Both the position numbers and the translations under genes were made by a program. Shown piece after piece: positions 2,526-46,583 of a DNA stretch of 64,000 bases (its first letter is position 1; each line of letters begins with the position of its first letter). Under the pieces are notes generated by a model, which was not told the origin of the DNA, did no database searches, and saw nothing but the letters and a program-made list of their open reading frames with translations. Origin of the DNA: Phytoseiulus persimilis (lineage: Eukaryota; Arthropoda; Arachnida; Mesostigmata; Phytoseiidae); the NCBI GenBank assembly GCA_037576195.1, contig CM075102.1, positions 25,850,745-25,914,744 of the forward strand, in the 5' to 3' direction.

Positions 2526-5500
2526 TCACAGCTGTATCTGTCTGGAGACCAGAAACTCCGCCCTCGGGACCTCTTTCCTCGACAATCTCATCTGAGGGGT
2601 CTGAGGCTGCGACCCCGGCTGGGGCGCCGCTATCCTCTGGTAGCTGTGGTGTTGACGCGATCGAGCATCGCTTTCGTCGTTCACGTCTTCGGGAACTAAA
2701 CTGTAGATGGGCTCGGTGCTGTCCTCGCAGCTCGCAGTTTCCTGCACTCGTAGTCTCGCCGGGCGTGAACTGCTCCGACTCGAGCGCTGCCGAGAGAGAG
2801 AGAGAGAGATATCTGTTGTTAATACCGTCCTGTCTCCCGTGTGGCAGAGTTTCGCCACCGCGCAATGGGACTCCGACCACCGAGAAGCCCTCACGACCGA
2901 CTAAATAACCAACATTCATCTTGGATCTGCGCTCTGTTATGCCTTGCACGCTCCATGAACAAACGTGGTTTCCAGTCTGAAAACGAGAGCTGCCGACGAG
3001 GAAGCAGAAGCAAACGAGAGTTTACCCACCCCGCTCCTTTGGCCGAAACTAGAAGTCTCGCTTGAGCTTGTTCCACTGTTCGAATAACCTCCTTGGAGGA
3101 GGTTTTCCAACTCGTGGGCTCCCTGAGCGCCGCCGGTCACCGGAAAAGCTCTCCGGTGGATTCCAGTCCCGATCTCGTTCCGCGGGAGGCCCACGACGAG
3201 GGTCGTCGACGCGTACGGGCCCGGCATGGGAACCTCCGGTCTGTTGAAACACGGCCGCTGGGGCTCGCTGAGGGGGGCGGACTCCCTATATGATATGCGG
3301 CATGACGTGTTAGATATGAGTCGAGAAAAAGTCGGTGTGCCAACTCGCCCGCCCTAGCAACTAGTTCGCTTGGCTGACAGCCATGATGACGACGACTCTC
3401 ATGACTCACATGGGGTAATTGCAATCCATGATATTGAGTTTGTTTTCGTAAAGGACCATTTTCTCACGTCCCGGCGGGAAGTACTCGGTGGTCGTGGGAT
3501 GGGCCAGAGCTGCGAAGAAACTGTGGACAACCTTGCCGAGTTAGAGGCAGAGCTGGGTTTACGTGACAGTTTTCGTAATGGATCTAGGTCTGCCCTAGTT
3601 TGTGGAGTTCTCGAACGCGTGCCACTCACTTTATATCTCCCCCTTTGGCGACGGGCACTTCCGTCACGGCCGAAGTTTTGTTCCGCATTTTCCGTAGGAC
3701 GAGCAGAATCGTGACGGCCACACAAATCAGAATCAGACACAGGATCGCTGAAACCAAAAGCAGCAGCCAAGGCGACTCGACAAGGTCGACCAGTAGACGT
3801 CGGTCGCTCTGATGCTCGGCCCCAGCCCTTCCTCCCCCAATTCCTCCCCCGGATACTTCGACGTGGGCGGTGGCAGTGATTGTGTCTGTGGAGAGCGGGG
3901 GGGGGAGGGAAACGGAAAATTTGAACGAGTTCACTCGCACCTTGCACATACCCAATGCCGGGAAAAAGGCTTAGCGGCCGTTCCCGAAATTCCATACCAG
4001 AAGTCGAGAAGGTGAGTGCACTCAGAGCGCGTCTAATGGTGGACAGGAACACAAAATCAACTTACCTATGGCTGAGCGAGCGGTGCAGATGTACACCCCC
4101 GCATCTTCAAGGCCGAGCCGGGGAATCAGCAACGTGCCAACGGCGTCGACCGAGAGACGCCCATACGTGTTGTTCGGGAAGAGAAGTTTTCCCGGTTGGG
4201 AGTCTCGGCTCCAGTAAATGTCCGGTTTCGGGTTGCCTGAAGCCGCGCATCGCAGGGCCACCGGAGCTCCAAGCGACACTCGTTGGCTCGAGGGAATCAC
4301 AGCGAATAGCGGCTGATCTGCGGTCACCGTAGGATTAGAGCTTTAGAAGCAACGATTCTCAACGAGAGCGGAGTCGGCGCCCTCAGCTGTCTTCATGCAG
4401 GAAAACACGGTCTCTATGTTGGGAAGGCGCCGACGACGACGCTCCTTGAGCGAGAAAGCGCCTCTTCTTCTCATTTTTCATATCACCGATCTGAGCTCGA
4501 ATAATGAGTGTTTGAACTGGTCGAAGGAAAACAGGATCTCCCACTGTGCTCTACTCACAATGTACAGTGAGACGCGATGTTGACGTTGCCCGACCAGCCG
4601 CGTTATCGGCCTCACACGTATAGTTCCCATGGTCGTCTGGGCCAACGTCAGTGATTTCCAGAGTTGACGTTGTGGATCCTCTGGACCTGGACTCTTCCAC
4701 CGCGAGAATTACGCGGTCGTCGCCGCCGCCGTTCAGTTCTCGAGTGCCGTGCCGCCAACGTACTCTTGGTGATGGATCTCCTGCGGCCGTGCAGACAAGT
4801 CGAACGCTGGCGTGCTCCTTAGCGAGTACGGTTTTGTCCTCGGGTGGAGTAATGATGTGGGGCTTACCTAGAAGAATAAAAATCCAATCACAATTAGCCG
4901 CAATTGAACAAACACTCAGACACACTAATCGGAATCGCAATATACTTTCGCCCCTGTTTCGACTCGTTAAGATCGAGTCAAGCCGCTGAATCAAATAGTC
5001 AGAACGCGGGCGGAGCGATCGTTCGACTCCGCAGCCGCCGGAGCCGAGCAAGCGAAAACCGCCGACGTGAGAGGGAAAACATGCAATATACTCGTTACTG
5101 CTAATCATAGCTGTTGCTGCTCTCGCAGGCCGCGAGCTACTATGGCCGCAGCCAGCGGAAACGCTGCCCGTTCGACAACTCCCTTCAGAATACACTGGCT
5201 CCGATGCCTTTGGAAAAAAATAGTACTTGAAAGCGAACCGGCTCGCTGCGGCGGCAACCGCGTTGCTCGCTCGGGACCACGGTCGGCTTGGCCTCAACGA
5301 ATGCGAGCTTAGCGAACGCTCGATTCGCTAGCTGGCTCGAGAACTATGCCTCCACGGCTGACTGACTGGATGATTGTTCATTTGAACGAAAAGCGCGCGA
5401 TGAACCTAAACCGATGTAGCGCCGAACGGAGCATCTGCTGGCGGATATCTCACAACGGAGTCTCTTGTTGCTTGCGCCGGATAATTCGCTCTGTGCATCA

Positions 5501-8500
5501 CAGAAGACAGAAAATTAATGTTGAACCAACGACGGATGGACGGACGGACAACGGTCGTTTGTTGTACACGAGTCGCGCGAGGTAAAAATAACAGTCACGT
5601 TCGCGAATGGAGCGAGCACCCACAAAACCAAAACATTCTTGATCCGCCGGAACGACGACAGCGGCGGCGACACCGAGACGACGTTGCGAGTTCGTTTGGA
5701 ATCACGAGCGAACGAGGAGGGCCGCCGTCCAGGGTCCCCGAAAACAACTTCCCCCGAAGCAGCTCACACAGGCTACGCATGATGCACGAATTCTCGTATA
5801 CGTACGATCCGATACCATCTCCCGCAACTCTTCTCTCGATAGTCCCGCAATCTCGCAACCGGTGAATATCACGTCCCTCATCAAAAGGATCAGCTCATGA
5901 CGGAGCGACGAGCGTAATGCGAGTACGATACCGAATACTCGGTACTTGCGGCACCTGACGATCGAACAGACATCACGTGTAATGATCGGTGCTTTTGTTC
6001 CTCACCCAACGGGGACTCCCAACTCCCGTCCTCAGCATGGGGAACCAACAAGCCCAACCAGCGGGCATATCGGATGGAACGTGTCGGAATCGGCATCGAT
6101 GTTCATTCGGTTCGTGCGCCGTAGTATAGTTGGCGCCGATTCCGCTGCTAGTCACAGCTGTCATCGCTTCCCTAATCGTATGACTGATTGATCGCGAGGC
6201 TCGGTGCTCCGGGATCGATGTAGCCATCCGTCACCGCAACGTGTCTCCGTGGCTTTGGCGTGATCTGCGTCCGCCACAACGCTGAGGCGACCACTCACTC
6301 CACCGCCAACTGCTTAGACAGCGAGCCAATCGAACAAATAGTACGCTCGCTCACTTCTTGGAATGGAAAACAAAGCCATTGCACATCCACTGCTCCTTCC
6401 CCTGAGTCCACTACCTCAACTCCAACAACTTTCAGCCTATCCATTAAGGATACCAAGTGTGCGGCCTTGAATGCAATGACTTCAACTCCGACTGAGAATT
6501 CCACACTTGAGCCCGCAGCGAGAACCCGGACGGCGGAACCGTCTCGACCGGATATCCACCTGCGCTGCGAGAGAATCCGGCTCTGAGCGCGAAACCAAAT
6601 TCGAGAAGCTTTCAGGTACGCTGGGCTGACGGCTTGACCAGCAGGCCACTCGGGCCACTTGATGAGAATAGTTCAGAAACTCTACTTGATTCCTCTCCTT
6701 CGACCGACTCCACCTGATTTTGAAATTCTCGCGGAAAAGCATATTCGGAACGTGGGGATCTCGTTTGCTTTCAGACGAAGGTCTTCAACAGCATCGAGAC
6801 GGAGATTCCGATCGCGGTCGGTTTTTCATGCAGTTGCCGCTCTCTCTGAGAAGATTCCAATCAGCGAGGCGCGTTTCATCACGCTGGCTCGAAAACAGGT
6901 GAACGTCCCTCTGGTTCGATTCCGATGGCGGTCCAGCTGATTTCTTGAGTTGAATTTCCTGCAGGGAATTTGAGCGGCCCGAAAACAAATCAGACTCGAC
7001 CAACAATGGGGATGGTTTCCGATTCATTCGAGCGCTCACTGGCGCAGCTCTTTCTGGATCGGGACTCAAGCCAGGCGCGATCGAAAATATTCAACAATAC
7101 TGAGCGTCCTCATCGGGGAATCCTGGTGAGATGGGAATTGTTTAACCACATCACGTTCAAAGCATTTTCTGATCGAGCACTTCAGGAAGCGTGGGATGAT
7201 TCCAGAAGCTCCGGAGATCAAGACAGTCGTGAATTTTGACCGACATGCCGCGACGTTCAGGAACGCGTTGCTGCACACGTCGACGCAGTAATAGACCAGA
7301 GTTAGGGTTGCCTTTGCATCCATGCGTTCCGGCTCTACGATGCAGATATTGGGGGACAAATCGTACGAATTGTTCCAATTTTTCGTTCCGGTCCCTCTTT
7401 GACAGTCGGAGCAAAAATCCACCAGACGGGGAAATGAAGAGCAGCAAGTAGCAATCCACACAAAAGCTTTGGGAATCCTTTGAGACTGCCGCCAAGTCGG
7501 ATCGCATCCAACGGGAAGCTGCTGTCAACGTGGTATTGTTCTGTTCGTTTAAATGCTACGACTTGCTCACTGCGATTGGTTGGCTGCGCGATGGAGGAAA
7601 AAAGTACAAATCGATTCGCTAGCTCATTTTTATGGTGACCCATTGACAGCCCGTGCCGCTCGGAACCGAGAAATTGATGCCAGTTGACACCATAGCACAC
7701 GGACGAGGAATCAGCCTCCTCCAAGGAATCTTCCTGACGAGATTCATGGAAGCCAAAGCGGCGGAACATCCAAGTGGCTGAGTGCGTCTGAGAATACGTG
7801 TGAACAACGATCCCCGCAAGTTTGAATACCCGCGCATCCCTCCGTGTTTTCGGAGCTGAACGAAGTTCCTTTTGTTCTAGAAGAAGAGCGCCACGCACTG
7901 AATCCCGATGAGCAGCTGCGAATCTCAAGTAGCGGTTCTGTATAAAATTCGGCGGAATTTATACACCAATAACCTTTGGCCCGCGTATTTCGGAGCTACA
8001 ATGCAGCTGACGGTCGGCGAGGCGGCCGCGGCCACTCGGCTCGAACATCGAATCCTCAGGCGACTCAGCCGCGGATTCCGCCCGATAGACAAGCAGCCGG
8101 TCGAACAACAACACGACCATTTATTACTTCGGCAAAATCTTAACAAAGTCGCAGTTCAGGCACGGCTCTTTTCCAAAGCGCCCGTCTTGAACCGGGACAA
8201 CGTCTGTGTGGCGCCATTTCCATTCTGACATCGTCATCCTCTGCTTAATGACTCGTCGGTTCCTCGAAAAATATTGGATATCAATTATTCCGCTCCAAAG
8301 AACATAACTTCTTCTCTAAGAGCCACCCTTGCGTGCGTGCTGAGGAATTCGAATTGATTCAAACTCCGCTCCATTCACGTGGGACCTGGCGATTAACGAG
8401 ATACATGTCTGGAGGGTGCTGATAACGTCTTGATTTCTGGTGGCAGAATCAGTCTTCGCATACCGTAAAACATCCCGAACCAAGGCTTCCCGAAAGGCAA

Positions 8501-11500
8501 TCAGAACAGCAGACTGAGGTGGAGAGTATACGCGATCACTCAGAGGGCTCTGGAGGTGTCAGGGGGGAACGGGGGCGGTGGAAGAGGGGGAAGGAAAGTT
8601 GAAATTCCTGTGCTCAAACCCTCGTTACCTGGACACAAAGTTGAGCGCTAGCGGCGCGTGTTGGAATCGACGAAAAATCAGGGATAAGGAAGGAGTTGGG
8701 AACGTTCGGAGAATGAATACATGACACAGTGTCACACACCATCTGCCACAAGATCGGCCCGAGACACAAAATACATGGATGTTATGTATGCGGGTGACAC
8801 CGTCTCTAGAGCGGCTCGACGACAACCAGGATGACGACGGCGTCGACTACGACCTCACTAGGCCACCGAGGCTGTATTTACCGTCCAGCTGGAGCGAATA
8901 TCCGCGTCCTCGCAAGAGCCGTCATCACATTATGGCATGGGCTGCCGCCTACGGAATTCGCGAGTCGAAAACTGCTCCGTTTGCTCTTGCACCGAAGACG
9001 CTGAAGCAAGCCCAGCCGTCGCTCGGTCGTCGGCATCGTCGTCTTAGTTACGTACGTAGCGGTACGTATTAGGATGCAGCGTCTCGTGCACACAATAAAC
9101 AGCTCCGTACAAGATTGTTCACTCAGCCAGTAATTGATCAACCTGGTTTGACTGCCAGGCTGTTGTTGCTTGTGCCTCCCGCGAGCCCCTGCTCCGCCGA
9201 ACTCGACTCGGCCAAGGTGAAGGAGGGTACGCCCGGTCGACAGGGAAACCGGGGGAAAGCAAAGTGAGCGGGACCTGAGGGGCAGGCAACAGGCACAGAA
9301 CCTGTGCCCTCATGACGCATTCATCCGGAAATCAACGAGTGGACCCAGGCCCCGTTACGGAAATTGCATCTCGTGCGACCGTCTGAAAAGGCTCCTCGTG
9401 CTCTCGTTCCCAACCTGTCATCGTCGGACGTCATCGTATATCTCCTCTCCACAGCTGCTCCTCGCTGTGAAACATTTTGCTCTTTTTCCACATGTTGAAT
9501 ACACTCTGGGCTCGAATTTTCTCCCCCATCTGATCCTTTTCTCGGGGCCGTCTCCCCTTCTCCTCCCAAAAATTCTTCTACAATCTAGACTCGCAGAGCT
9601 CGTCGGACAAACGCTCCCGACGCCAGCGTAGTCATTCCAGTCCCGAGCTTCCTCTTGGAGGGAAAAATCCTGCGTACTTAGCAACGGTTTGCTCCGATGA
9701 GGACGCGAGGCTCGTGAGTCGGTATCTATCTCCGTATATCGCGCCGTTCGGGTTCGATCATAACAACCAGTCCTGTGGAACGATAATCGACGAGGGCTTA
9801 GTTGCTCGGAAAACAGATATTGCTCATCGATAGGCCAAGCTGGCTCCCACTCATTTATGAAATCAACACTGAACTATGCCTGATGAGAATTTATCTCCCT
9901 CCTATATGAAATCCAATTCAGCCGCCAGCTACAGTGGGCCAATATATTGGATAGAGATCGCCGTCGACCGATCATCGAGCGGTGGCAGACGGTCAGCCGG
10001 GCCGGACGAACCAACGGAAGCGACCTCCCAGCCAACCAAGAAATCCAAAGCTCCGACTAACGACAAACGTCAGGAGATTTCTCATCAGATAGACCCCGCT
10101 TAGGACCGCATATTGAATGAACGTGGCGGTGCGATTTGACAAATTTGAAATTAAATCAGCCAGGCGAGTATCGAGCCCGTTCGGAACTGTGTTCCTCCGA
10201 AAACGGAATCGCAAACCGCGGGATCGCTGATTCTGCTCCAGATTGAATCCTGGTATCGAACAGGGCGCGCGACTTACTTGTGAGTTTGACTTTCAGCTTC
10301 GCCGGTGGGGTTTCCCGGGTGCCCACAATGTTTTCAGCCTTGCACACATAACCTCCTTGATCGGTAGCCCGCACTTCGGAGATGAGGAGATTGTCTCCCT
10401 GAAGTCGGAGCCGGCTGCGACCCGTGCCGACATTCACCTGAAAACAGAAAAGATTAGCGGAACACGGAATGAGAAGTAGAATGAACGGCGTGCGTTCGTT
10501 TTTCCGTCCTAATACACAGCACAGAGAAGCGAGATGCTGAGAGAAGAGGAGGAGAAGCAGCAGCAGCAAACAACGACCACGTCGAACGGATACCGAAGAC
10601 ATTTATCAAGCGGCAAGCAGACCAACTAAGCCTTATCTAATCTCGATGCTCTGTCAATTAAGATGTCTTCGAATGAGGGCAGATCTTTTCCGCCCCTTTC
10701 CATCTCCTCATTATCCTCCTTCTCATTTTACTCCTCAGTAATTTAATAAGGATTTCCTCCCGTGATAGAGCAAGCAGCAGTTAAAAGTTACGGTTAATTA
10801 TTCCCATTAAACAGGTGCAACAGCGGTTTCTCAACTTGTGCCCACCTAGCTCCTCAAGCAAGCGTGCCGCTCCGGGCCGAAGTTCGGAATTCCCGAGACC
10901 AGGGATAACGCGAACGGTCCGAAACCGCCGAGCGGGGTTTCGGAGCGAATCTTGCCCGCCCGAGTCCTCGCTTGAGATTCCCGATTTATGCTCCAAACCC
11001 TGTTTGCTCCAGCTCTCTAGAATCCTTGCATGGATGACATGCTCCTAAGGACAGCGCCCGTTGAGGCCGTTTCCTGTTTGCCCCGATAACCTCGCATTCA
11101 GAATGAACTACTCGAGTGTTGTCAAGTTTCAGCAACCACGGCAGCGGAGTGACGGTGAAAAATACCTGAGGTAAAAGTCGCGAGAGCGGCGCCGCCACCA
11201 AGATTGTCGCCATCGCAAATCTTTTTTTCTACGTTCGGTTTGCTAGCGGCACCCAAGCCGAGAAAGATTCTCTGTTCGTCGGATCAAGCCAAACTGAATC
11301 GCTTGTTGGGGATCAAGCTGTCAACGGGCCGGGCGTGTCGGCCTTTGGGCTGGTGTGTCTACTATGCGCCGGCCTGCCAGCCTCCTGACTTCTCTCGACG
11401 GAGGACGAAAATCTACGGATCTCCCATGGAAATGTCGTCAGATAGAATGCTGGCGCGGGACAACTAGCCTACCAAAATACAGCCCGTGGCAAGACGACCA

Positions 11501-14500
11501 AACGGTCGAACCTAAAGCCTCAAAGACCGAGATCAGCGGAATATGGGGAAACACACCGATGATGTTGATCGTGACGAAGAGCTGTCCACGTCGTCAGAAC
11601 AAGAGAATATGCCCGAAACGGCAGCGCCTTGTCTGTTATGACGAGCAATTAGCAAAAAACCGCTTCCGCTCCGTCATCATCGGTTATAGTGCGGGTGAGT
11701 GAGCGATGGAGGAAGTGAGTGAGAAGGCGTTCGAGCCTCTGAATGTGAGCATGTGGAACCCTGCGACGAGGACGACGCCAAACATGGAAAGTGAACAACG
11801 AGAGCGAAATCACGAGCTCGATGCCATAGAGCAGGCGAGCGTGCAAGCTCGGCTAGAGGAACCTGAAATGCATCGACCGCGATGGAGGCCGCAGAGACTC
11901 GATGGTACTCCCCGCGAGGGGGATGAACAGGATATAGAGAGGAAAATGAGTGGCTGAAGTGGATGAGCATCCAGAGTGGAAAAAGTGGTGCTGAAGCTCG
12001 GAGAGCCTTGTGATGCACTCAACGGAAGTGGCTCGCAATACAATGAACTGTTGATGCAAGATGCAGATCATACTTACGGGAACGCCTTCCTTCAACCATT
12101 CGACGTCCGGTCTGGGAACACCGGGCGGCGGGGTGCACTCGAGAACGACTGAGCCTCCTAGTGACGTTTCTGTTGACTTCGGCTCCGCGAGAAACACTTC
12201 TCGCAAATCTGGAAAGCAGTCATTTGACGGAGTTAAGAAGGTTTCCAGGCTCTCCGAACCGTTTTCCGAAAAAAAAAAAAAAATCAGAAAAAGTCCGAGA
12301 GTCTGGAGTTCTCAAGGAGCAACTGGGACGTCATGAATAGAAAGAGGCCGCATGGATAAGCACAATGAGTGGAACCCAAGAGGAATGTGTCGAGTCGTGG
12401 TCATCCTGCATGACCACGAAGCGTCTGCCGAAGCGAGTTCGATTTCAAAATCCGTGACGGAACAGAGCCCAGCCTTCCGATCATGAACACAGAATCGACG
12501 GAAGGGTCCGAGTTTCGTTTGCGAAAGCGGCGGAAAGTTCTGAGAAGCTTTGCACGGTCATTCATTCCAATGCTCCATCTGACAGAAGTGTAAAATTGTT
12601 TTGGAAGAGCTAAAACATTACTCGCTACAAATCGCATGACACAGTCGTGAACCCGTCTAGGTTCAACACGATCCCGAATTGACCGTAAGTCGATAAGCCC
12701 AACTCGGAAACATTCATCGTCGAAGACCACCCACGGAACGACATGGAAACGGCTACGTAGCGCGACGGTCTAGCCTAGCGGCTCTTCGCTTTGCCGGACG
12801 ATCGACTAGGAACGTGTTTTTTTTCTCTTCAGTTTCGAGATATCAGATTTCCCGGGTTTACGCGGATGAGAGGCAGAAGGAACCGCGGACCCGATAACCC
12901 GCCAAGTTGCCGACAGCCTGGCAGAGCATCGTATGTCGCCGTGCATGCATTCGACACGGCCGGTTTCCCCCTCCGACCTCGGAGGACGGGAAAGTGGTTC
13001 AACTCACATGCAATATTGAGCGTAGCGTTGTTGCTCCTCAAGGTTTTGCCGTCTTCGGCCACACCTTCACACCAATAAACTCCAGTGTCATGGTTGTTCA
13101 CGGACAGGATGAATAAGGTTCCCCAGGATACGATTGTCCCTCCTCTGGAAGTGACAGGTTGGCCTTTGTGAAACCAATTAATGTGCTTTGAACCTGCCAC
13201 GTTGCAGCTGAGTTGGGCAGGATCGTGCCTGAGCGCCACCACGTTCGAAGGATGCTCAATGACGACCAGCTCATCTGGAAAGAAGAAACGGTTCTTTAAA
13301 ACGGATTCCCGACATCAGCCGCATGCAACCATGGCTGGATTTCTCGAAAACTCCCGAGCCAAACCCAGTCGAATACATCGCATCCAGTTCCGGAAACCGA
13401 GAGGACGGAAGACCATCAACGATTCTTCATCAAATAAGGACAGATATCATCTGACGTAGATGGGTGTAGCTCATGTGCTCAAACATTCGGTTTCCGGCGT
13501 TAGATCCTCGGACAACACGAGCGATGGTGAGGCGGGAGAGGGTGCGGCTACCGGTGCTAGATGAAGAGCTTGTGGGGGAAGATAGAGCACCGCTTTGAAT
13601 TTGTTTAATAATCCCAGCAGCAGTCGTTAGCGCTAGTTAGCTTGCCGCAGGATTGGTCATTAGACCGTTATGGCATTCAGGCGAACAGTGCAGTTTTGAA
13701 ATTTCAACCACAGACTGGCGGTGCTGTCCGAGCCCCGGAGGGAGATGTTCTACTTCCGGTCTACGAGGCCCACTCGGTGGGTTCCCTCTCGCGTCGCCCA
13801 GCAGCGCATCGTATTGCGGGTCTCGTGTCGGCATTGGAGAGAGGATTCCGTGCGACTTCGTAAATATCCAAATTCATAGGTCTAGATTCCGTCTCGAAAC
13901 GTTGCGTTTTCCCGCTGAGATTAGCTCAGAGAACGTCTCGCAGTCGTCGATGAGCGTTTCCGATTTCGTATCAGCCGGATCTTTTTGCATCCCGTTCGGA
14001 ATTGAAATCATGGAATGTCAAGGATCGGAACGCCTGGAGTCGGATGGTCTGCGAGTCACAAGAAAAACTGAATTTGAAGAACACGTGGTCATCGGGCTGC
14101 GCTCGTAACCCGTGAGCAAAGCCGAATGTACGACCGTGCGGGATTCACTGCTCGGAATATATATTTTTTTCTACTCCAGATTAGTCAGGGATGCGATCGT
14201 CAAATATCCAAATATCGTAGAAATAAATTCTGATACTAACAGCAGCTGCGTCGTAATGGTGCTCTTCCGAGACCCTCACGGGACGACGTTCGATGGAACA
14301 AGCTCACCGAGTCCTCTCCATGTTTCTTCAATCAAGTCAGAGCAATTCTTCTCCCGAATATTCGCTCGATGTTGGCGAAAAGAGAGAGGAAAACACGGCA
14401 CTCTATCAAACCTCGAGCCTAACGAGCGAGCTGACGTACAGGGCCCACGTCGAGCAAGGAGCATGATCCATCACAGGCCGAATGAGTAAAACGAGGAAAG

Positions 14501-17500
14501 TCATTAATATTTTCCAGAATCGTATCTCTTTGGTCGGCGCGGCATTTCGGAATTCCACCTTCATTCGAAACTCTCCTTTAGTCCTGTTCGGTGACACCGG
14601 CATTATTCGTTCGATGCTTTTTCAGCTTCTAATGAAGGCACGCAAACACGAAGACGCCAAACGAAAGAACCCAAGACAAGCGGATCAGAAGCCCGCCCCG
14701 TGTTCATGGATTTTCGATCGGCGATAAACGTCGGTTTCGTGACATCGATCGCGGTACGCGCATATTTCCGTCTGTCTTCGAATCTCTCGCTCGAGTGGAC
14801 GAGCGGATGCATATGCGATCGACTGCGCTAATGCGTTAGAGACACGCGTTATTTTCCTGGCAGTTGGAAATCTGGCGATATCCGAGCTACTGCGAGCCTT
14901 GAGAATGTGGAAAAGCAGCGACAAGGCTTCATTCCACGCCAAGGCTCTTGAGAACGCAATCGATATGCTGACGTTTGCCCTCACACAGCTGACAGCTTCA
15001 ACTCCAGGAAGCTTCCACGTTGTCCCGAGTCGGTTTCGATTGTCGGTCTTGTCGCAGATTCGCGATTTGGCGGATTTCTGCCAGGGATTGAATTCACCTG
15101 GATGGAGCGGTCTTCGGACGTCCTCATCTTTCTGCCGTCTTCGCCATGTGAAGAATCCGATTGCCGCCACCTCCGCAAGGTGTTCATTAAAAAGCATACG
15201 ACGATATCTCTTATCGTCCGCGAGATGGATTTCCTCGCTTCTGTATCGGATGTCATCATTACGACGACGTTGCATTCCCTGAGAACGGAGGGAACATCTA
15301 AGAATTGCGAGCGGTCACATCTAAGAATTGCGAACGGTCACTTTCACCGTCGCTATGGCTGTATTTCTATTTCTAATTGATACGTTTTATTTATGATCAA
15401 GTGATGAGCCGGTTCCTCTCAAATTAGGCCAACGTGATTTCCGTTCCAATCATAGATATTCGCACTGACGCAATTGAGTATTTGACTGGAACTCAGAGCT
15501 ACGCTGCACGACCGTCGGCGGAAATGCGTTTTCTCAATGCGAGGTCGAGAATGAATTGGAGGAACCGATTCTTGCGTGGACATTGGAATAGGGTTGTTCG
15601 AAGGTGCTGCGGGCCTGCCGGCAGCCGTCCGGTTGGATGACTAGAAAGACGGGGAACGGTCTCGACAGGGCATCGAGTTAAGCCGCGAGCGATCTGGAGC
15701 GAGGTTGGCCTAAGTTTTTACTCGCAGCAGTTTCTCGCAGCTCCGTCGCTCAAATCAGCGCTCCTATCCGAGTCATCTCTTTTTGTCGATATACTCCCCA
15801 AAAGCTCTCAGCTTCCTCCAAGTTCTGTCCGGCATGAGGGAGAGAGAATCTAAACGGTTCAGTGCTTATATTCGAGTCGTAGAGGACAAAGGATCATGAT
15901 CGAAACACAGAAACAGATACTCGAGGAAGTATTTTAATTCATCCTTTCCTCCTTAAGTTCGTCTATACTACAATGAGCTCGTTCTCGTCTTCTCAGCACG
16001 TTATTTCCGTTGTCTATCGAGCTCGTATGAGTCGTTGGGCATTCGATTCTGAGGCCGAGTACTGGTCGTAGCTCATTGTTCCATGCGTTTTTCAGTCAGT
16101 CGGTCGCTCGGTCCCTGGGTCGGCATTCAGCGAACGTCGCTGTCAGAGACATTGAAACATCAAGTGCCGGCCGAAGAGCGAAGCAAGTCGAATCAAGCAG
16201 AAAGAAAGCAAAGGAGACGGCTCCTGTCAAAAGCCTTAAACCTCAAAAGTGCCATCAGCGACGACCGACGACGCTATTTAAGAATAGCGACATATGGCAG
16301 TAGAACAATTGTTTCTCAGAACAGAGCTGCTGTCAGATCGGCAGACCAACTTGTTCGGTCTCTCCTCCATTCCACCTCTTTCCTCTCTGTTTCCCTAGTT
16401 TTCTCTCCTCGAATGCCAAAACTCAAACAAAATCGTCGATCGACCGAACACTCCCGTCACTGTAGTGGATGACTTGTGAGCGGGCGGTCGGCTAGCCCGC
16501 CGGCCGACCGACCGACGACCGGCTGTCTCTTTGGTTGTCTCCGAGAGCACACATGAGACTCTTGACTTTCCGTTTCTCTCTTCCATCCGTTCTTCGACTT
16601 TCTCTCCGGGTTCCTAGTCGAGTAAGCATTTGAGGAATGTCGGAAATTCGTCATTCTATGGAATACCTCCGGCTGAGAAATCTCTGTTTATTTTCGTGCG
16701 TCGTCACCATTGGTGAAGAAACATAAAGTTCGAGGCAATTACAGCGGGAGCTCTTTGCAACCATCCTCAGAATACATGGAATGTATTTCATAGTGTACAT
16801 GAAGTGGACGGCTTCGGTCTGACGCACATGCCGATGTCACGAGCTCTCAATCAAATTTAATACAGTGAACGTGGTGGCACTTCTCCGAGATCAGAGCCGC
16901 TAGCGATATGATCGTCAGGAGGATGCTCGGCTTCACTTTCACATTCAACCAAATTGCACTCAGAGGAGGGGAAGGGCGCGGAATCGCTGAGGTTCTGGCA
17001 GTATCAGTCCAAACTGAGCGAAGGACGATCAAACGAACGAAAAGTCGATACGTCAAGTTCGGATGAAGATTGAAGACCCGCAGTCAAGCCATCGGTCGTG
17101 GTCGGTCGGTCGGTTGGTTGGTTGGTTGGTTGGTTCACCAATGGCCGAACCTGCACCTCGAAGTCTTCATCCGAAAGACTGACTGAGACGAACTCCCACT
17201 ATATGAGGCACCGGGTTTTGGAGGCTTTTAAGAAACAGCCCGACAAGCAACAATAACAACCGGTATTTTGATGCAGCTACCGCGACCGTTCCCGCTTTAC
17301 CCAGGCCGCCACTAGGTCTTCTGAGGCGTCTATTACGCCTGAAGGCTTCTCTATGATGGCGAAATGATGGATCTGACAAACCGAGTGTTGAACTCTGGCG
17401 GACAGCGGCGCTGGCTCACGTTTAGTCAGACCGAAGCCCGTTGAAGATCAACCACTTTTCCCGCTTTCTTGTAACTTATCCCGCGCGGAACGCCTATCAT

Positions 17501-20500
17501 GTGCTCGCGCACCATAGAGTGGTTGAGACATGAAGTCCGCTCTTGTTCTCGCCGGCTCTTGAATTGAATTCGATAGGATTTCTTCCGAAGTTTCGAGAGT
17601 TCCCCTTCCCGCCGAGAATGGATAAGAATGTTCGGTCAGTTCTCACGTCTCTTTCAGGACCGCAACGAAAGCTCCTGATACCTCTCGGAGTTAATGAGCG
17701 AAGCTGCACCCTCTATTAACACCATCGATCCGCGAGAAGATGTTAATCGCGCTTAGGCCCAAGAAGTCTAATGAGCTGCCAACGTGGAAAGCGGGAAGAG
17801 GCTCGAGAAGCACTCGTTCGTCCCTCGCGTGCTCTGTCGGAGACCTGGTTTTATTGGGGATTGCCTCGATTTCCAATGCAGCGTCGGCAGAAAGAGCCCG
17901 ACGAGCCCGGCGTTGGTGGGAATTCGACCGAACCGAAAAGTAATCCCGAAGGTGGCTTCAACGAGGAGCTCGCATACGACCACGCGGTGCCACGAAACCA
18001 TTTGAGAGGCTTTCCAATGTATTGCTTGCACGGTTACCTTGCCTGCATCATTGTTGTTACTGGCAATGTCGACGAATGCGTCGAGTCAGATTGTTTGCCT
18101 TCGCCGCTCCTTTCCAGGGAAGTTCTTCCCGGCCTCGGCTCATTTGTCGACCCTTCACGAGGCGGAGAGCCAGCCATCGGTGGTTATCGAGCTTCCATTG
18201 GTTGGATCTCGTTGATGACGTATCGGTAACTCCACGGGCCGAAAGCGCAGAGGATCGAAAGCGGAAGCCATCAAGGATTCATCGCTTCAGGCACAGAAGC
18301 CAATTGCCAGCAGAGCTTATCAAGCGCGTAGTCGGTTGGAATTTTGAATTCAATCAAAAGCTCTCGGTGAAATACACAGTTGGGAGACGGCACGAGCGCG
18401 TCGTGGAGCGTGAAGGCTCGCTCAAGCACGAGGTTCTTCGGAGGTTTTCCAAGGTCAGGATGTTCCTCGTACGCGGACCGTGGCACTCGAACGCCAGCTG
18501 CCGGTCACGGCGGCCACGACAGCCAGGCCACGCGTCGAGCGCATCGTTCAGCTTTCTGGCGGCTCGGCACCTGACAACAGACGGACCATAATAGATGGCA
18601 AAGACCGTGATTTTCAAGAGTCCACAGCTCAAAAACGAAACTTCATGTCGCTGTGGTTAGGAGAATATTGCACACGGACGCCTTGGATATCGAACAGATC
18701 ATCATTTGACGGTGGAAACCTGCTTCCACAAGAGTCCCCAAGAGTCGTTGGACGTTTCGATTGTTATGGAAACAATTATTCTTTCTCATATTGAAGGATC
18801 CTCGGCTGACTAACCGATGAAATATTTCGTACACGTGGCACAAGGGAACCAGAAGAGGTGACCGATCCAAGACCAGAACAGCGATGAGCGACGCATGATT
18901 CAGGAGTTTCGAGAAGTCTTGATTCCTCGAAGGGGGGAATTCACTCAAACGGTCACAGAACATCCAAGAATTCCTCATGATTCCATGACTACCGATGTCT
19001 TCCCAACGGTTCCGTCGACTCTTCTTCCACCGGTTTTCCCGAGCATTCACGTGCTGCGCCCGACGACGAGGTGTGCCGATGCGGCATTCGATTCGATTCG
19101 CTCATCTGAACTAATCTCAGGATTCGTTGGAATCCCGAATGAAATTTCCCAGTTCGGCGTAAAAAGAAACGGAACTCTCCGGATTTAGTCCTGTTTGCTC
19201 TCGTTCCCAGCGGCTCTTTGTCAGAAGAATCGTCGGACCGGAGAGGATTTATAATAAATTAATTCCCGTCCTAGCAGCAACAACGAGCGTGCAATGCAGC
19301 CACGGCTGCTTCTTTGAATCCGACTTGAATCGGATTCGAATCCGTTCAGAATATCCGCCTCGCTCCGTTTGTCCGCCGCGCAGCTCTTCACGTGGTTACG
19401 TTCTGCGGCAGGATCATCGGCTGGGTTGCCGTAAACCGACTAGTTCGATTCCTCAACGAGTCCTGAGTAACTGTGTGCAGCGAGGTAAAAAAACGTTCAA
19501 TAGACCATGCAGCAAATTCAAAGCGGCATCGATCGTGTTAAGAAGTGTGTGTGTGTGTGTAGACCCGGAGACCGAGAGGGGGAGAAGGCGCCAAATACAG
19601 AACCCCATAATAGAGGGGTGCGGCAGTCCCAATACGCCACTCAACTTACGTACAGCAGATAATCAAGCTATTAAAAGAACGAACAACGACGAGACCGACA
19701 TCGGCGCAGAAAAGACCCCCAGCAGGATATCTACGCGTTGGAATGATACGCCTACTTGCCGACCCGGTAGCCTACCCCTGCCCCCCCCACGTTGCCTCCC
19801 ACAGCAGAAATATGCGGCGCGAGAGAGTGAACGACGCAGCACCCCTCCACAATGGTCACTCTCTAGGTGCGGGCCGGTCGACCGGATAATCACAGGGACT
19901 CAACAACACCTAAGAATCGGAGTCGGTCCTTTGACATGCGTGGCATTTCGCCAGCTTTGAAGTTCGAAAGCTGAAAGTTCCAACTTGACCACCGGGTACG
20001 TCAAAGTCGACTTGCGACAACCGAGCCGAAATCCCATCCATAACTAGCGGAATCGAGATTGCTGGGAGCTGGTGAGCTACAGTGTCAGACAAGAGACTCT
20101 CATTGAGTTTGAGGACGTGGCGACGACATGCTTTCTCCACACAAGAGCGTTTCTGCGCTCTCCTTGCTTGAGAAAGTGTCCGATGGCGGGTGACTTCGCG
20201 TAGGCCAGAGTGTGGACATCCGTCAGACGACGAGATGTTGGTCACAGCTGGGGCCAACTCATTACTTCTCCCAGCACGGAACCGAAAGGAGAAGAACACG
20301 AGTAAGCCACGACGTGCCCTCAACGCAGCGTTCTCTCGGCGACAGACATCAGCGGCCGGCCAGCCGCTCGACTGGCAAGCCGGTTGGCAAACCAGTTGGG
20401 ATGAGATTGAATGAGGAAGAGACAGCCTCTAACGAGCGAAAACCCGAATCATCTAATCAATGCCGTTTAGGGTTTGCCCGAGTCCTCGCACTGGAAGGTA

Positions 20501-21935
20501 TTCCCTCGACAGAAACAGATGGAGTCGAGGAGAGGAGCAGGAAACATGGTCTTGGTCTCCACCCAACACAGCACCCCCGCTCAGAACAAGACGTCTGGCT
20601 TCTTTCTATCCGTTGACGACGAACTAACGATGTTATAATATTCGGCCGCGACGTTGGAGCTGGCTGCGAGAGGGAGAGCTAGTCTTAGTGATCAAGTTTT
20701 TGCTTGTATGTTTGATACGACTGGAAGCCGTGAGCCGTCTCGACGGGTGAAGGCCGTCGATACGCCGATTTTTGGGTCTTAGGATCTCGGACCTGGCACT
20801 TCTAGAAGGAGCACTGACGGTGAACGTTGAGAGTCAGCATGGTCGGTAGAAACATTCGTTGACATGTTTGCTATCATCGCAGACGCGGCATTGTTTTTAG
20901 ACGGATTCTTATGCGGGCTTTCCCGTCTCTGTCGAGTTTCGGCGCGAAGAGAAACAATCTTCCGCCCTCCAAGGGATACTTTCCAGTGCAGTGACCCAGT
21001 CCAGTTCTTATGGCATCACATGGCAAATGGATGGTCAAGATAGTTCTAGAACCGTTTCCAATCCTGTTCGCAGTCATCTTCAAATTCCCTCCAGAGAGCA
21101 AGGGTGACCTCTTGGTGGAATCTGTGGTAAAATACTCGGTGGAATCGTGCACTATTTCTGATATATTTTTCCCAAGATAACAACATATCAGGAGCCACTC
21201 GCGGCCGCTGGCTTCGGCTCACGGGTCTACCTAGACCGACAAACTCAAGACGAGGTAGCCGAGTGGCAAGCGCGATTTCATCCTCTTGTGCCGATAGGAG
21301 GAGGCATGTCGAATCGGTCTCGAGAAGAAGGTCAGAGCTCACGCGGCAGGTTCGATTCCTACCGCAGATGCCCTGCAAAACTGGAACGCATTCTTCATCG
21401 AAAAATGATGTGCGATCTCAGTTCTGAACTCTCTGAAATCTATGAAGTACTCTGCGGTTCGTGTCAAGTGTCATGATATGTGCGAATGGTTGCAAGTATG
21501 AAGTCGACTTCTGCGACTGCCCCCGCCCTTCTCACACGGCAGTGGGATCGTTCCACGAAATTATTCAAAGAGCCTCACTCCCCTGCACATGGCTTCCGGA
21601 AAAGATTCCGGCCATGCTTCCCGGTTTCCGTTCGAATGAACAGCTGAGGAGGTATCCACTCCGCTCTTGAAAATGGGATGAGCGACCCCGACCGGCGATG
21701 AATGCATTGGCGATCGATTTTGACCAAGATCACGTTACGAAATCGAGTTATACTCATCTAAATTCTATCTTCCTGCGTAATCCAATGGAAAATGTGAACA
21801 TTATTCCAGATGAACTCCGATCTCGCTTACTGTTGCAATAGTCAGTGTGTTGCATAGCAATTTACCTTTCGCGGCTCGCGCACTACTGATCAGGACGATG
21901 AAAATTAAACCTGAAGCTCTCCGAACCGGAATCAT
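2526..21935 (-). CDS. Roundabout-like axon guidance receptor, four Ig domains, no fibronectin domains
   Basis: Predicted single-pass receptor of the Robo family, which binds Slit and steers growing axons. Coding exons, 5' to 3': 21935-21866 (signal peptide with hydrophobic core SGLIFIVLISSA), 13274-13008 (Ig1), 12208-12078 and 10437-10278 (Ig2), 4867-4559 (Ig3), 4317-4066 (Ig4), 3933-3630 (linker and membrane segment), 3285-3030 and 2786-2526 (tail). All phases join, giving about 669 residues. Ig2 carries the Robo-like run NLLISEVRATDQGGYVCKAE, and Ig4 ends YICTARSAIVNSF. The membrane helix is near residues 453-477. The tail has PYASTTL near residue 525, resembling the conserved Robo CC1 tyrosine motif. 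Canonical Robo has five Ig and three FN3 domains; here Ig4 joins the membrane exon across a 132-base intron, leaving no room for them. The first exon is assigned by phase and signal-peptide character only. The last exon could use a donor 4 bases further on (exon end 3026), which would shift the tail frame to a stop at 2464. Confidence 0.83.
2787..2811. repeat. GA/CT dinucleotide tract in a Robo intron acceptor
   Basis: A run of GA dinucleotides on the plus strand reads as CT repeats on the minus strand, directly before the CAG acceptor of the last Robo-like exon. It doubles as the polypyrimidine tract. Confidence 0.7.
4868..10277 (-). other. Large intron of the Roundabout-like gene
   Basis: This 5.4-kb intron separates the second Ig2 exon from the Ig3 exon. 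I find no further Ig-like exon and no other gene on either strand. Open frames inside it look like chance. Confidence 0.6.
12266..12280. repeat. Poly(A) tract
   Basis: A run of about 13 A residues lies in the intron between the Ig1 exon and the first Ig2 exon. No retroposon body is recognisable next to it. Confidence 0.6.
15294..15339. repeat. 23-bp tandem duplication
   Basis: Two adjacent 23-bp copies beginning ACATCTAAGAATTGCGA differ at a single base (AGCGG against AACGG). It is a recent local duplication within the Robo-like first coding intron. Confidence 0.85.
17099..17137. repeat. GGTC/GGTT tetranucleotide microsatellite
   Basis: About nine tetranucleotide units run GGTC, GGTC, then GGTT repeated, ending before CACC. 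It is a simple repeat with no coding content. Confidence 0.85.
19543..19561. repeat. GT dinucleotide microsatellite
   Basis: A short GT run of about eight units lies in the Robo-like first coding intron. Confidence 0.8.
21249..21372 (+). other. tRNA-like pol III promoter remnant (possible SINE or tRNA pseudogene)
   Basis: An A-box match (TAGCCGAGTGG, 21256-21266) is followed at 21349-21359 by a perfect B-box (GGTTCGATTCC). The candidate acceptor stem, GACGAGG, has no complement after the T arm, and one T-stem pair is broken, so this is not an intact tRNA. A tRNA-derived SINE head or a decayed tRNA-Leu/Ser-type gene fits best. Confidence 0.35.
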
Positions 21936-41467: not shown

Positions 41468-43113
41468 CTAGACTGTCGCCTTAGAGGCGCCGTAACGAGT
41501 CTGCATGTCTTTTTTGAACTGAAGGAAGAGTCTTCTATTCTGAACGTTTTGTTTTTCACGCCAGAAGCCGCGGCCTTTTCTGGTTTGGATGCCACGGTGG
41601 ACGGCGAAGGCTTCGTCGAGGACCTGGAACGCAAACCCCGCCAGGTAGGTCTCGTACACCTGCGTGTTCCGGGTGAAGCCGTAACCCACAAAACGTTCAT
41701 CGTGTCGAGGAACGGTGAAGGGGGCCACGTAGAAAGGCTCGTAGAAAAATTCGTAATTATCGATCTGGTAGGCAACTTGCAGTTTGTCGGGACTTTTTCT
41801 CGGAAGACGCTCCCACAAACCGTGGTTTGTTGCGTACTGGTTGTGGATGAACACGATCTTATGAAAGGGTCTCGCGTATCCCACAGAGACCATTTTTAAA
41901 AGGTCTGCTTTACTCTGGGGCATATCGGCGTGATCATGCATCTCGTACGTGGGAACCACAAATATCTCTTTGCTGGCTTTTCGTTTCTGTAGGAACTCAT
42001 TCAGTTGGGACGCTAATGCTGGTTTCGGTATTATGTCGATGTCTGTCAGGAAGAAGAACCTCGATCCCATCCTCTCGCACCCGTTCCGGGCCACGTTCCG
42101 AAGATGGTTCTGAGGAAACAGGAGTTTCAGAAGGTCGACGTTCTTGAGCGACTTGATAGGTACAGGTGGTGGCGCCGGCAAAAGAGACTTCAGTTGGTCT
42201 GCGCACGAGGTAGACTCGCTCGACCGAGTTGAGATGTCTTTCGCATGAAGATCGATTTTGCTCCGATTGCTGATTGGAAGAACGAGGTGGAAGGCGAAGT
42301 TCAGTCGAACCGCGTCGGAACAGATGCCGAGAATCCGAACAAACTGTCGTAACGCCTGAAGCTCTTCGGTAGTTCGAATGAAAACTGCCACCGATACTGG
42401 ACCATCCCAGTGCTGCGCAATATCCATCAGGCCCAAGAGCCGATCCATCGACGACAAGGTCGCCAAGCACACTTGAGACCTCGACGTCGATTCCTGATCC
42501 TCCGCTATGACGACGTCTTCGAAAATGCGGTAGTGCCTCGAACTGTCTAATCTGAAAGGTTTAGGCTCAATCCTGTGTCTGGCTAACTCTTGAGAGCCCA
42601 TTCAGCTCCTGACCAACCAGGAGCTCAGAACTCCATTCTCCTGGATTTTCCGAAGATTCCAGCAGGAGCTGATGGCGGTGGATTCTTTATATCATCGCTG
42701 TCGCTCTGCGTAACTCACCTAACGTTCTGGAGATTGAATATTGGCATATCGAATCCAGTGGTCACGGCCGTGGAAGCTGTGGTTCTCGAAACATTCGAAT
42801 CTCGGAATATTAAGGCACGATTGGTCCACAAAAGCTTCCAGGCACTCTGTGGGGGAAGCATGGAATGAGGGAGAATGTCAATTTGTGGACATTACGGCCC
42901 AGGCGCGATTCAATGAGAAAAGTAATATCCACAAGCTCTGTTGGTGAAGCCTCGGTGACATACCTGTGCGTTGAAGTCCGACGCAATGAGCACAGCTGTG
43001 GTGTTAACGAGGATAACGAAGGTCAGAGCAGCCAACACAACCATAGCGCGGCGACGGAAGCCTCGCCCGAGACCCCCACGCCCGCCACGATAGGAAAATT
43101 TCGTGTGACCCAT
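41468..43113 (-). CDS. Beta-1,4-glucuronyltransferase 1-like, glycosyltransferase family 49
   Basis: Type II Golgi membrane enzyme of the B4GAT1/LARGE-related GT49 family. B4GAT1 adds glucuronic acid to xylose as the primer for matriglycan on alpha-dystroglycan. Coding exons: 43113-42964, 42846-42719 and 42551-41468; phases join, giving about 453 residues (human B4GAT1 is slightly shorter). Residues 23-44 form the membrane anchor (RRRAMVVLAALTFVILV). The family landmark RLDSSRHYRIFEDVV spans the last junction. It is followed by LATLSSMDRLLGL, the WDGPVSVAVF block and a metal-binding DxD-type motif, FFLTDIDIIP, near residue 265. The conserved C-terminal half (EMHDHADMPQSKADLLKMV, then FVGYGFTRNTQVYE) is intact. 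An acceptor-like AG lies one base before the ATG. The next gene upstream is another glycosyltransferase on the same strand. The in-vivo acceptor may differ from that of B4GAT1. Confidence 0.9.
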
Positions 43114-44817: not shown

Positions 44818-45798
44818 TCAACTCACAGAGCGGGCACCACTTGTGGTCAGTTTCAGAGTTTCGGTCACGGTCATTGTGGCTGGGCTCGTTGATTTTGTCA
44901 GAGCTCTGCTGCACAATTCGATCCGCTTCTGAAGACTTTTCCAGGACACTCGCAAGTATTCCGCCGTGTATCCGTGACTCATGAACCAGGGTGACGACGA
45001 CGTATCACAAGCTCTGAGGAAAACTCGGCTGTTGGCAAAACCGTCATGCGAGCGCCGGGCGATTCCCATTTTGTCGGCTACGAGGCCCGTCCAGAATACG
45101 TCCTCGAGGTAGAAATAGCGGGATTGCAGGTATCCTCGGTACAGTAGTGCTGGCGAATCGCCGCTCATGAGATAACTGACACCCGTGACGAAATCCGGGA
45201 AAGTCGTCCCGTTATAGAGGAACGGCGGTACGTACCATTTCGAACTGGGGTCTCGGATGGGTAGCCATCCATGCGCGAGTTTCCCCCAGATCGATCTGGG
45301 TTCTTTCAGTGAAGCGACGTCTTCGTAGAACTTCTTCGGATTGAGGAGGACGTCATCGTCCACTTTCAGCACGTGCTTCACCGATGGACAGTGGACCGCA
45401 GCGTACCGGATCATGGCTAGTGATTTCAACGCCAGGTTGTAGTAAGTGTCTTTGAAATCCTCTTGGACCATGTCGCCATGAACCCGAATTTCTTCCGAGA
45501 GGATAGGGCCGTGAGAGCGCCCTATCAGGAAGACGATTTCGGCACCGGACTTTCTCAAATCTCGGCCCCACGTATCACGGATCGCGAGGCGGTTTTCCAC
45601 GTTTATCGGCTTGCTGAATACACACACGAGGAGCTTCGTCGTCGGGTCACACTGTTTTGGGGGAACGAGGTATCGTGCATCTGGAAGTCCTGTGTCCGCC
45701 TTCGGTGGCAGCAACAAATAGGACTTGAAAACGAGTCCCAAAACACAGCCCAGGCTGAGAGCACCTAGGACGATCCGTGCTGTTCGGAGTCTGCCCAT
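44818..45798 (-). CDS. Beta-1,3-galactosyltransferase, glycosyltransferase family 31
   Basis: Single-exon type II Golgi glycosyltransferase of 326 residues, the size usual for B3GALT enzymes, which transfer galactose in beta-1,3 linkage to N-acetylhexosamine or related acceptors. A short cytoplasmic tail is followed by an anchor at about residues 8-24 (IVLGALSLGCVLGLVF). The GT31 signature blocks appear in order: AIRDTWGRD (residue 73), VFLIGRS, DFKDTYYNLALKSL (residue 115), the metal-binding LKVDDDVLLNP (DDD at 147-149), YVPPFLYNGTTFPDFVTGVS, and LEDVFWTGLVAD (residue 231). The frame is complete from ATG to TGA. A CAG acceptor-like site lies a few bases before the ATG, suggesting a 5' UTR intron. 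Substrate cannot be told from sequence; GT31 also contains N-acetylglucosaminyltransferases and C1GALT enzymes, but the spacing here matches B3GALT best. Confidence 0.93.
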   Translation of the reverse strand: MGRLRTARIVLGALSLGCVLGLVFKSYLLLPPKADTGLPDARYLVPPKQCDPTTKLLVCVFSKPINVENRLAIRDTWGRDLRKSGAEIVFLIGRSHGPILSEEIRVHGDMVQEDFKDTYYNLALKSLAMIRYAAVHCPSVKHVLKVDDDVLLNPKKFYEDVASLKEPRSIWGKLAHGWLPIRDPSSKWYVPPFLYNGTTFPDFVTGVSYLMSGDSPALLYRGYLQSRYFYLEDVFWTGLVADKMGIARRSHDGFANSRVFLRACDTSSSPWFMSHGYTAEYLRVSWKSLQKRIELCSRALTKSTSPATMTVTETLKLTTSGARSVS

Positions 45799-46583
45799 AG
45801 TCTGCTGAGGCCAAAACAGACACCGGGGCCGTCAGGCCCATTCGAGATACGCTCCGGTGCGAACGACGCTGGCTGACTTGCCAATGAAGCGCCCTGGCCG
45901 TCCCACACAAAACTGAAATCCAGAACAGCCTTCCATGCGATATCAAAAGCATTTCGCGTTTCGGTCTGCTTGAATCAGAAGTCTCAATGATATTCGGTGG
46001 CTTCATTTCTATTACCAGCGTTGGGGCGAATTCGCGTGCCGCATTCGACCGACGCTTCAATCAGCCAGCGGGAAGGGTAACAAAGTTGACTCGGCGCCTC
46101 TCCATTGACTTTGCGTTTGTTGCTTAACCAGTTCGAAAACGGGCAGCTGTAAAATATCAGCCCATTCACGAATGATGGACGAGCCCGGAGTTTGGACTGA
46201 CTGCGGCGGAAACGAGGAATCGACCCCGAACGGTCTCGTTCGAAGACTCCCCGTAACAGCTCTGCGCCCCGCGTGGAGATGGGGGGGGGGGGGGGGGAAA
46301 CAGTCGTGAACTCCGTCAGCTTCTCTACAAGCCTGTCGGGTCACACAGGAAACTCTCGAGGGGAAAGACATTGACGTTGAGGTAGATGGCACCCTTCCTC
46401 AGAACATACGCAGAAAACGTTTCTTCTCGGCGCAGCTGTCGACCCTGAAAATGTTTGCTGAGGGCTCGCGAGTTTGTTCGGTGGGGCAGCTCGTTTCCAC
46501 TCTCGGAGCCAATCTCAAGAAGATGTTGCGCCTCATTGGAGCTGATTGCATCACAAACTTCAGTGAATGACAACGCTTCAAAA
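45799..46583. other. Intergenic region with poly(G) tract
   Basis: No gene is visible between the GT31 start and the neuropeptide F 3' end. A run of about 20 G residues lies near 46279-46299. Confidence 0.5.
46279..46299. repeat. Poly(G) tract
   Basis: About 20 consecutive G residues follow GGAGAT. It is a simple repeat with no assigned role. Confidence 0.8.

Follow-up and report, generated by a model that had tools for sequence, protein, structure and literature searches.

A Roundabout-like gene of Phytoseiulus persimilis predicted to encode four Ig domains and no FN3 repeats

Roundabout (Robo) is an axon-guidance receptor. Here we describe a predicted Robo gene, called Robo C, in a stretch of 64,000 nucleotides of the Phytoseiulus persimilis genome (assembly GCA_037576195.1, contig CM075102.1, positions 25,850,745 to 25,914,744), referred to as the window. 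By its Ig order, gene structure and cytoplasmic tail, the predicted protein is a member of the Robo family, and it departs from the canonical plan of five Ig domains and three FN3 repeats in having four Ig domains, not five, and no FN3 repeats. Quite possibly, with confidence a little short of even, Robo C is a modulator of Slit-Robo signalling that would act through Ig1-Ig4 and would have been derived by an internal deletion fusing two exons.

Gene structure and domain order

Robo C lies on the minus strand, where ten exons between 21935 and 2526 join into one open frame of 690 residues without a stop. In the predicted layout, a signal peptide is followed by Ig1-Ig4, one membrane helix and a tail bearing the motif PYASTTL. 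All acceptors used end in AG and all donors begin with GT, and the boundaries of exons 2-9 coincide in position and phase with those of two paralogues, Robo A and Robo B, wherever the paralogue has an intron. The parts of the gene, all on the minus strand, are:

21866..21935, minus: exon 1, ATG and signal peptide MIPVRRASGLIFIVLISSARAAK (predicted; the sole exon passing the signal-peptide criteria)
13008..13274, minus: exon 2, Ig1; aligns with Ig1 of ROBO1/2, 58-59% identity to its counterparts in Robo A and Robo B
12078..12208, minus: exon 3, first half of Ig2; splice positions common to Robo A and Robo B
10278..10437, minus: exon 4, second half of Ig2; splice positions common to Robo A and Robo B
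4559..4867, minus: exon 5, Ig3 (I-set, 65 bits)
4066..4317, minus: exon 6, all of Ig4 but the last strand, aligned on ROBO Ig4
3886..4065, minus: intron of 180 bases interrupting the final strand of Ig4, matching Robo A in position and phase
3630..3885, minus: exon 7, the fusion exon; completes Ig4 with its last strand and continues with a Gly-rich linker, the membrane helix and the juxtamembrane sequence VPVAKGGDI(K)
3410..3520, minus: exon 8, tail, FAALAHP...YENKL; homologous exon in Robo A and Robo B
3030..3285, minus: exon 9, tail with the CC1 motif, without the CC0/WIRS block of Robo A and Robo B
3198..3218, minus: CC1-type motif PYASTTL (PYASTT in Robo C, A and B)
2526..2786, minus: exon 10, tail end with EPIYSLVPED, and stop codon
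2128..2133, minus: AATAAA, read from the sequence, a possible signal for polyadenylation some 390 bases past the stop

Exon 1 comes from a scan of 32 kb of the minus strand (13276-45000) for an exon with an ATG, fewer than 45 residues including a hydrophobic core, and a donor in phase 1. Both gene ends, the stop at 2526 and the ATG at 21935, agree with an earlier note on this DNA, as does the end of the Ig4 exon at 4066. The note was mistaken about the membrane exon: the start it gave, 3933, falls inside an intron, the exon starting at 3885, after CTCTCCACAG, and the gap it measured as 132 bases is the 180-base intron. It had also reckoned with sequence dropped by the assembly between 3933 and 4066; there is no N there or anywhere else within 2526-21935. 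Two other boundaries were rejected. A start of exon 8 at 3509 yields a stop, and the acceptor before 3520 restores the frame homologous to Robo A and Robo B; an end of exon 9 at 3026 throws exon 10 into another frame. The exon 9 donor used, at 3029 (GTGGGT), is equivalent to the Robo B donor after RRSG, and Robo A has no intron at this place.

Pfam recognizes four Ig stretches and no fn3 stretch in the Robo C protein. When the protein was compared with PDB by phmmer, the three top matches were ROBO2, ROBO1 and ROBO1, followed by Contactin-2. Residues 28-408/409 are collinear with ROBO2 (6iaa, E=1.9e-61) and with Ig1-4 of ROBO1 (5o5g, E=3.9e-58), both matches running from Ig1 to Ig4 in order. 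On 6iaa, the last Ig of Robo C falls on Ig4 inside the long alignment (183 bits), and Ig5 is matched secondarily (27 bits). Together with the ten-exon frame, these results uphold the description of a Robo-like receptor with four Ig domains and no FN3 repeats given in the earlier note. In a tree limited to six Robos, which took in no other Ig family and left the order among A, B and C open, these three form a group with 100/100 support that excludes the fly Robo and the two human ones. An AlphaFold model of Ig1 from three sequences was of low confidence (pLDDT 66.5).

The absent domains were searched for both nearby and genome-wide. Queried by tblastn with Ig5 and FN segments taken from Robo A and Robo B, the window and 10 kb downstream gave nothing better than E=0.1 outside the Ig and membrane exons of Robo C itself; one match at E=0.12 sits on its own Ig1. 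Scanning the genome for fn3 (best 150 of 306 candidates scored) placed none of the matches listed in the window. The Ig5-FN3 part of Robo B (best 102 of 203 candidates scored, 57 matches) retrieved the exons of Robo B and Robo A (A at 47-60% identity), then a 31% match with E=1e-13, and no third set. Among the best candidates scored there is thus no sign of a missing Ig5-FN part misplaced elsewhere in the assembly.

Full-length paralogues and the fusion exon

A genome search with the Robo C protein (best 64 of 218 candidates scored, 72 matches) found Ig1 at 50% identity or more at three places among the matches listed: the window (98%), C2:21768802 (58%) and C3:2313487 (51%). Robo B, on contig C2 (21.76 Mb), and Robo A, on contig C3 (2.31 Mb), each possess Ig1-Ig5, FN repeats, a membrane helix and a tail. 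In their joined exon pieces Pfam finds five Ig and three fn3 stretches for Robo A, and five Ig stretches and two fn3 stretches passing alone for Robo B; the exon carrying FN3-3 and the membrane helix is 59% identical between the two. The earlier note had proposed to look for a second, full-length Robo; the genome has two, and beside them its picture of a shortened paralogue without Ig5 and FN1-3 stands. Over Ig1-Ig4, identity is 58.6% between A and B, 50.1% between A and C and 52.3% between B and C, and in Ig2 Robo C and Robo A are each 65% identical to Robo B. Another locus, C2:25.23-25.26 Mb, 600 kb away and with Ig and fn3 matches, was rejected as a full-length Robo, its matches being weak and not in Robo order.

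The paralogues allow us to trace the origin of exon 7. Four introns (between Ig1 and Ig2, inside Ig2, between Ig2 and Ig3, and between Ig3 and Ig4) agree in position and phase among all three genes. The one in the last strand of Ig4 is present in Robo A and Robo C and not in Robo B, and in Robo A the exon that follows it is the Ig5 exon. At its other end, exon 7 stops at a phase-2 donor after VPVxKGxD, as do the FN3-3/membrane exons of Robo A and Robo B. Its homology to these exons extends over 52 amino acids and starts at residue 106 of A (37%) or 108 of B (48%), just before the membrane helix. We infer that exon 7 unites, in frame, the 5' end of an Ig5 exon with the 3' end of one carrying FN3-3 and the membrane helix. 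Robo C probably stems from a duplicated Robo with five Ig domains and three FN3 repeats through one internal deletion, in which the stretch from Ig5 to FN3 would have been lost and the start of the Ig5 exon fused to the end of the FN3-3/membrane exon. Because the outer splice positions are conserved, a single deletion with both ends inside exons requires the fewest steps.

Robo B, which lacks the intron in the last strand of Ig4, carries Ig4 and the start of Ig5 on one exon. At 3780-3885 of the window, the linker of Robo C is made up of a G-rich near-repeat, GGGGGAGGAATT, followed by GGGGGAGGAAGG, which may have been left by repair where the deletion was joined. Folding of the DNA of the fusion stretch gave nothing notable (z 0.64).

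Changes in Ig1 and the tail, and possible roles

The branch of Robo C is about twice as long as those of its paralogues (0.69-0.73 versus 0.30-0.35 for Robo A and Robo B). In Ig1, Ig2, Ig3 and Ig4, changes found only in Robo C number 19, 13, 13 and 21, those found only in Robo A 5, 13, 12 and 12, and those found only in Robo B 4, 8, 15 and 9. Post hoc Fisher tests of the C-only changes against the A-only and B-only changes combined give p=0.004 for Ig1 versus Ig2 and Ig3, p=0.011 for Ig1 versus Ig2-Ig4 and p=0.012 for Ig1 with Ig4 versus Ig2 and Ig3. By these counts, change specific to Robo C is concentrated in Ig1, the Slit-binding domain. Over 376 codons, own changes at codon positions 1, 2 and 3 amount to 64, 51 and 82 in Robo C, 54, 38 and 76 in Robo A, and 43, 40 and 67 in Robo B. 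Crude as these numbers are, with third positions differing at 64-68% of sites between pairs, they argue against neutral decay of Robo C.

The positions at which human Robo contacts Slit are presumably E72, N88, K90, L130, R136 and K137. Four of them can be aligned with Ig1 of Robo C, which keeps E72 and L130 and differs at the other two, having S for N88 and N for K90. At these last two sites Robo A and Robo B have N and G, so K90 is absent from them too. Compared with the Ig1 of fly and human, that of all three Robos (13008-13274; L015:9487-9744; L039:4802-5056) is shorter and has no counterpart of R136 and K137, so that the Slit-Robo interface may differ in this lineage. PMC4011710 lists residue pairs fitting the presumed contact positions; by our matching of sites, its natural variants include S in place of N and G in place of K, whereas N is not listed for the K90 site. 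Of the earlier note's remark that the gene keeps the Slit-binding domains, the presence of Ig1 holds; the substitutions at N88 and K90, and an Ig1 changing faster than Ig2 and Ig3, qualify it. As for the ligand, a Slit LRR query gave six matches at C1:13067116-13072713, four of them over the C-terminal part of the query and one at 52% identity, which we judge to be Slit; the top match of this search lay elsewhere, at C2:50863687.

The tails of Robo A and Robo B carry YAEV, LNTF and PYASTT in that order, and Robo C has only PYASTT. Four blocks, YENKL, PYASTT, HEL-xLLQ and EPIY, are common to all three. YAEV of Robo A and Robo B is taken as CC0, and we take PYASTTL to be CC1 after the form PYATTQL; the CC1-like tail motif read in the earlier note is upheld. 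Runs of at least three prolines, which would represent CC2 and CC3, are absent from the tails of A, B and C as assembled (that of Robo B being incomplete). LNTF fits the rule for the WAVE-recruiting WIRS motif, namely a bulky hydrophobic residue, any residue, S or T, and F (PMC8096436); Robo B has a second WIRS-like match and Robo C none. Intron 8 of Robo C, read in three frames, showed no CC0/WIRS block. Robo C thus appears to part motifs that Robo A and Robo B carry together, CC0 and WIRS being lost and CC1 kept. When the part of Robo A that spans CC0, WIRS and CC1 was searched against the window by tblastn, the best match was at 48804-48890 on the minus strand (43% over 30 amino acids, E=0.006), about 27 kb upstream of Robo C; it was not taken as an exon.

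How might such a protein work? As a modulator, the Robo C ectodomain would bind Slit, Robo A/B or both via Ig1-Ig4, and would damp or reshape the repulsive signal of Robo A and Robo B mainly through the ectodomain; having no FN repeats, it would itself escape FN-dependent negative control. A WIRS mutation in the endogenous robo1 of Drosophila is reported to abolish midline repulsion (PMC8096436), and Drosophila Robo2 inhibits Robo1 via Ig1-Ig2 with no need of its cytoplasmic domain (PMC4505356). Because CC0 and WIRS are lost, WIRS is needed in the fly and Robo2 acts without its tail, we hold a modulator to be likelier than a main repulsive receptor. More tentatively, Robo C could be a dedicated endogenous modulator, presenting Ig1-Ig4 on a short stalk free of the Ig4-masking FN hairpin, of WAVE recruitment and of FN-dependent control; as reviewed in PMC7580999, the face through which Ig4 of human Robo2 dimerizes is occluded by Fn2.

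Several points weigh against a modulator. The tail has an intact CC1, and its roughly 230 residues would be superfluous in a mere decoy. WIRS-like motifs are easily gained or lost, as 26% of shuffled Robo C tails contain a match. The Fisher tests were picked after the counts had been seen and concern one gene, the tree leaves the order of A, B and C open, and Ig4 versus Ig2 and Ig3 is not significant (p=0.17). The changed contact residues and fast Ig1 could equally fit a loss of Slit binding. Drosophila Robo1 without Fn1-3, moreover, still signals fully (PMC7580999). Since the fly receptor can repel without its Fn repeats, loss of domains alone makes no decoy. The suggestion of a decoy or modulator in the earlier note is therefore left with support from the CC0/WIRS loss, and with the fly deletions against it.

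These deletions speak for Robo C as a compact, fully signalling Slit receptor, in which Ig1 would bind Slit, CC1 would signal, and the loss of FN1-3 would only lift FN-dependent negative regulation. In Drosophila, Robo1 deprived of either Fn1-3 or Ig2-5 can bind Slit and rescue repulsion in full, and the Fn-less variants are insensitive to Comm and Robo2 (PMC7580999). Robo C keeps CC1, E72 and L130, and S at the presumed N88 site is among the natural variants in PMC4011710. We nevertheless consider this rather doubtful, for CC0 and WIRS, the latter needed for repulsion by fly Robo1 (PMC8096436), are gone, and the C-only change is concentrated in Ig1. That same concentration, with S at N88 and N at K90 and the doubled branch length, would suit a change of partner, Ig1 no longer binding Slit and serving another ligand or cell adhesion, as in mammalian Robo3/Robo4; mammalian Robo3 lost Slit binding by Ig1 substitutions (PMC7580999). 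Yet Ig1 retains the EHPS, W and YWC core and 58-59% identity with that of Robo A and Robo B, and no other ligand is indicated, so that a changed partner seems unlikely. It is highly improbable that Robo C is a decaying gene, a mis-annotation or a product of assembly loss. Its fast evolution and two predicted elements, the exon 9 donor and the first exon, would fit, but the ten exons are open, share splice positions with the paralogues and include an in-frame fusion exon; the contig, of 52 Mb, has no N here, no orphan Ig5-FN set appeared among the best candidates scored, and the first two codon positions have fewer C-only changes than the third, a pattern like that of Robo A and Robo B.

Neighbouring features and known Robo systems

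Elsewhere in the window, the minus strand carries an open frame of 377 amino acids at 41468-42601 with a full Glyco_transf_49 domain (dystroglycan glycosyltransferase type, E=3.7e-86), one of 337 amino acids at 44818-45831 with a Galactosyl_T domain (E=2.8e-39), and, at 52789-53424, a partial CDC20/Fizzy WD40 domain scoring 93 bits, under the curated cut-off of 200. A scan with the bacterial code found no tRNA in the window. Long series of Ig-domain exons spaced about 1 kb apart occur at C2:48615364-48674298, C2:44274338-44299376 and C3:13768484-13812313, and recall the alternative-exon arrays of Dscam-type genes.

Canonical Robos (human ROBO1 and ROBO2, Drosophila Robo1, Robo A and Robo B) resemble Robo C in the order Ig1-Ig4 and the single membrane helix, Robo A and Robo B additionally in the four tail blocks and in intron positions. 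Unlike them, Robo C has no Ig5, FN1, FN2, FN3, CC0 or WIRS motif. Reduced ectodomains are known from Bombyx mori Robo1a and Robo1b, which are without Ig5 and Fn1 but by description keep two FN repeats and are reported to be repulsive, and from vertebrate Robo4, a reduced paralogue that is without Ig3-Ig5 and Fn1 but also keeps two FN repeats (PMC7580999, PMC4991095). Brown and Evans (PMC7580999) and PMC4991095 name only these as known exceptions to five Ig and three Fn domains. The action of Drosophila Robo2 on Robo1 in trans would share the working principle proposed for Robo C, inhibition through Ig1-Ig2 without the tail (PMC4505356), although Robo2 has the full ectodomain of five Ig and three FN domains and repulsive signalling of its own. 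Among chelicerates, Ixodes scapularis has four putative Robo paralogues, one of which, 'Robo2' (B7QEN0), is predicted at 42 kDa from a gene model that may be partial (PMC6591238), so a short Robo may exist in ticks as well. Among the entries listed from one open collection, there was no report of a Robo without FN3 and nothing relevant on Slit/Robo in mites.

A natural Fn-less Robo would be the native counterpart of the Robo1 deletions made by Brown and Evans (PMC7580999). Robo C would allow us to ask why the arrangement of five Ig and three FN3 domains is so conserved if it is mostly dispensable for repulsion.

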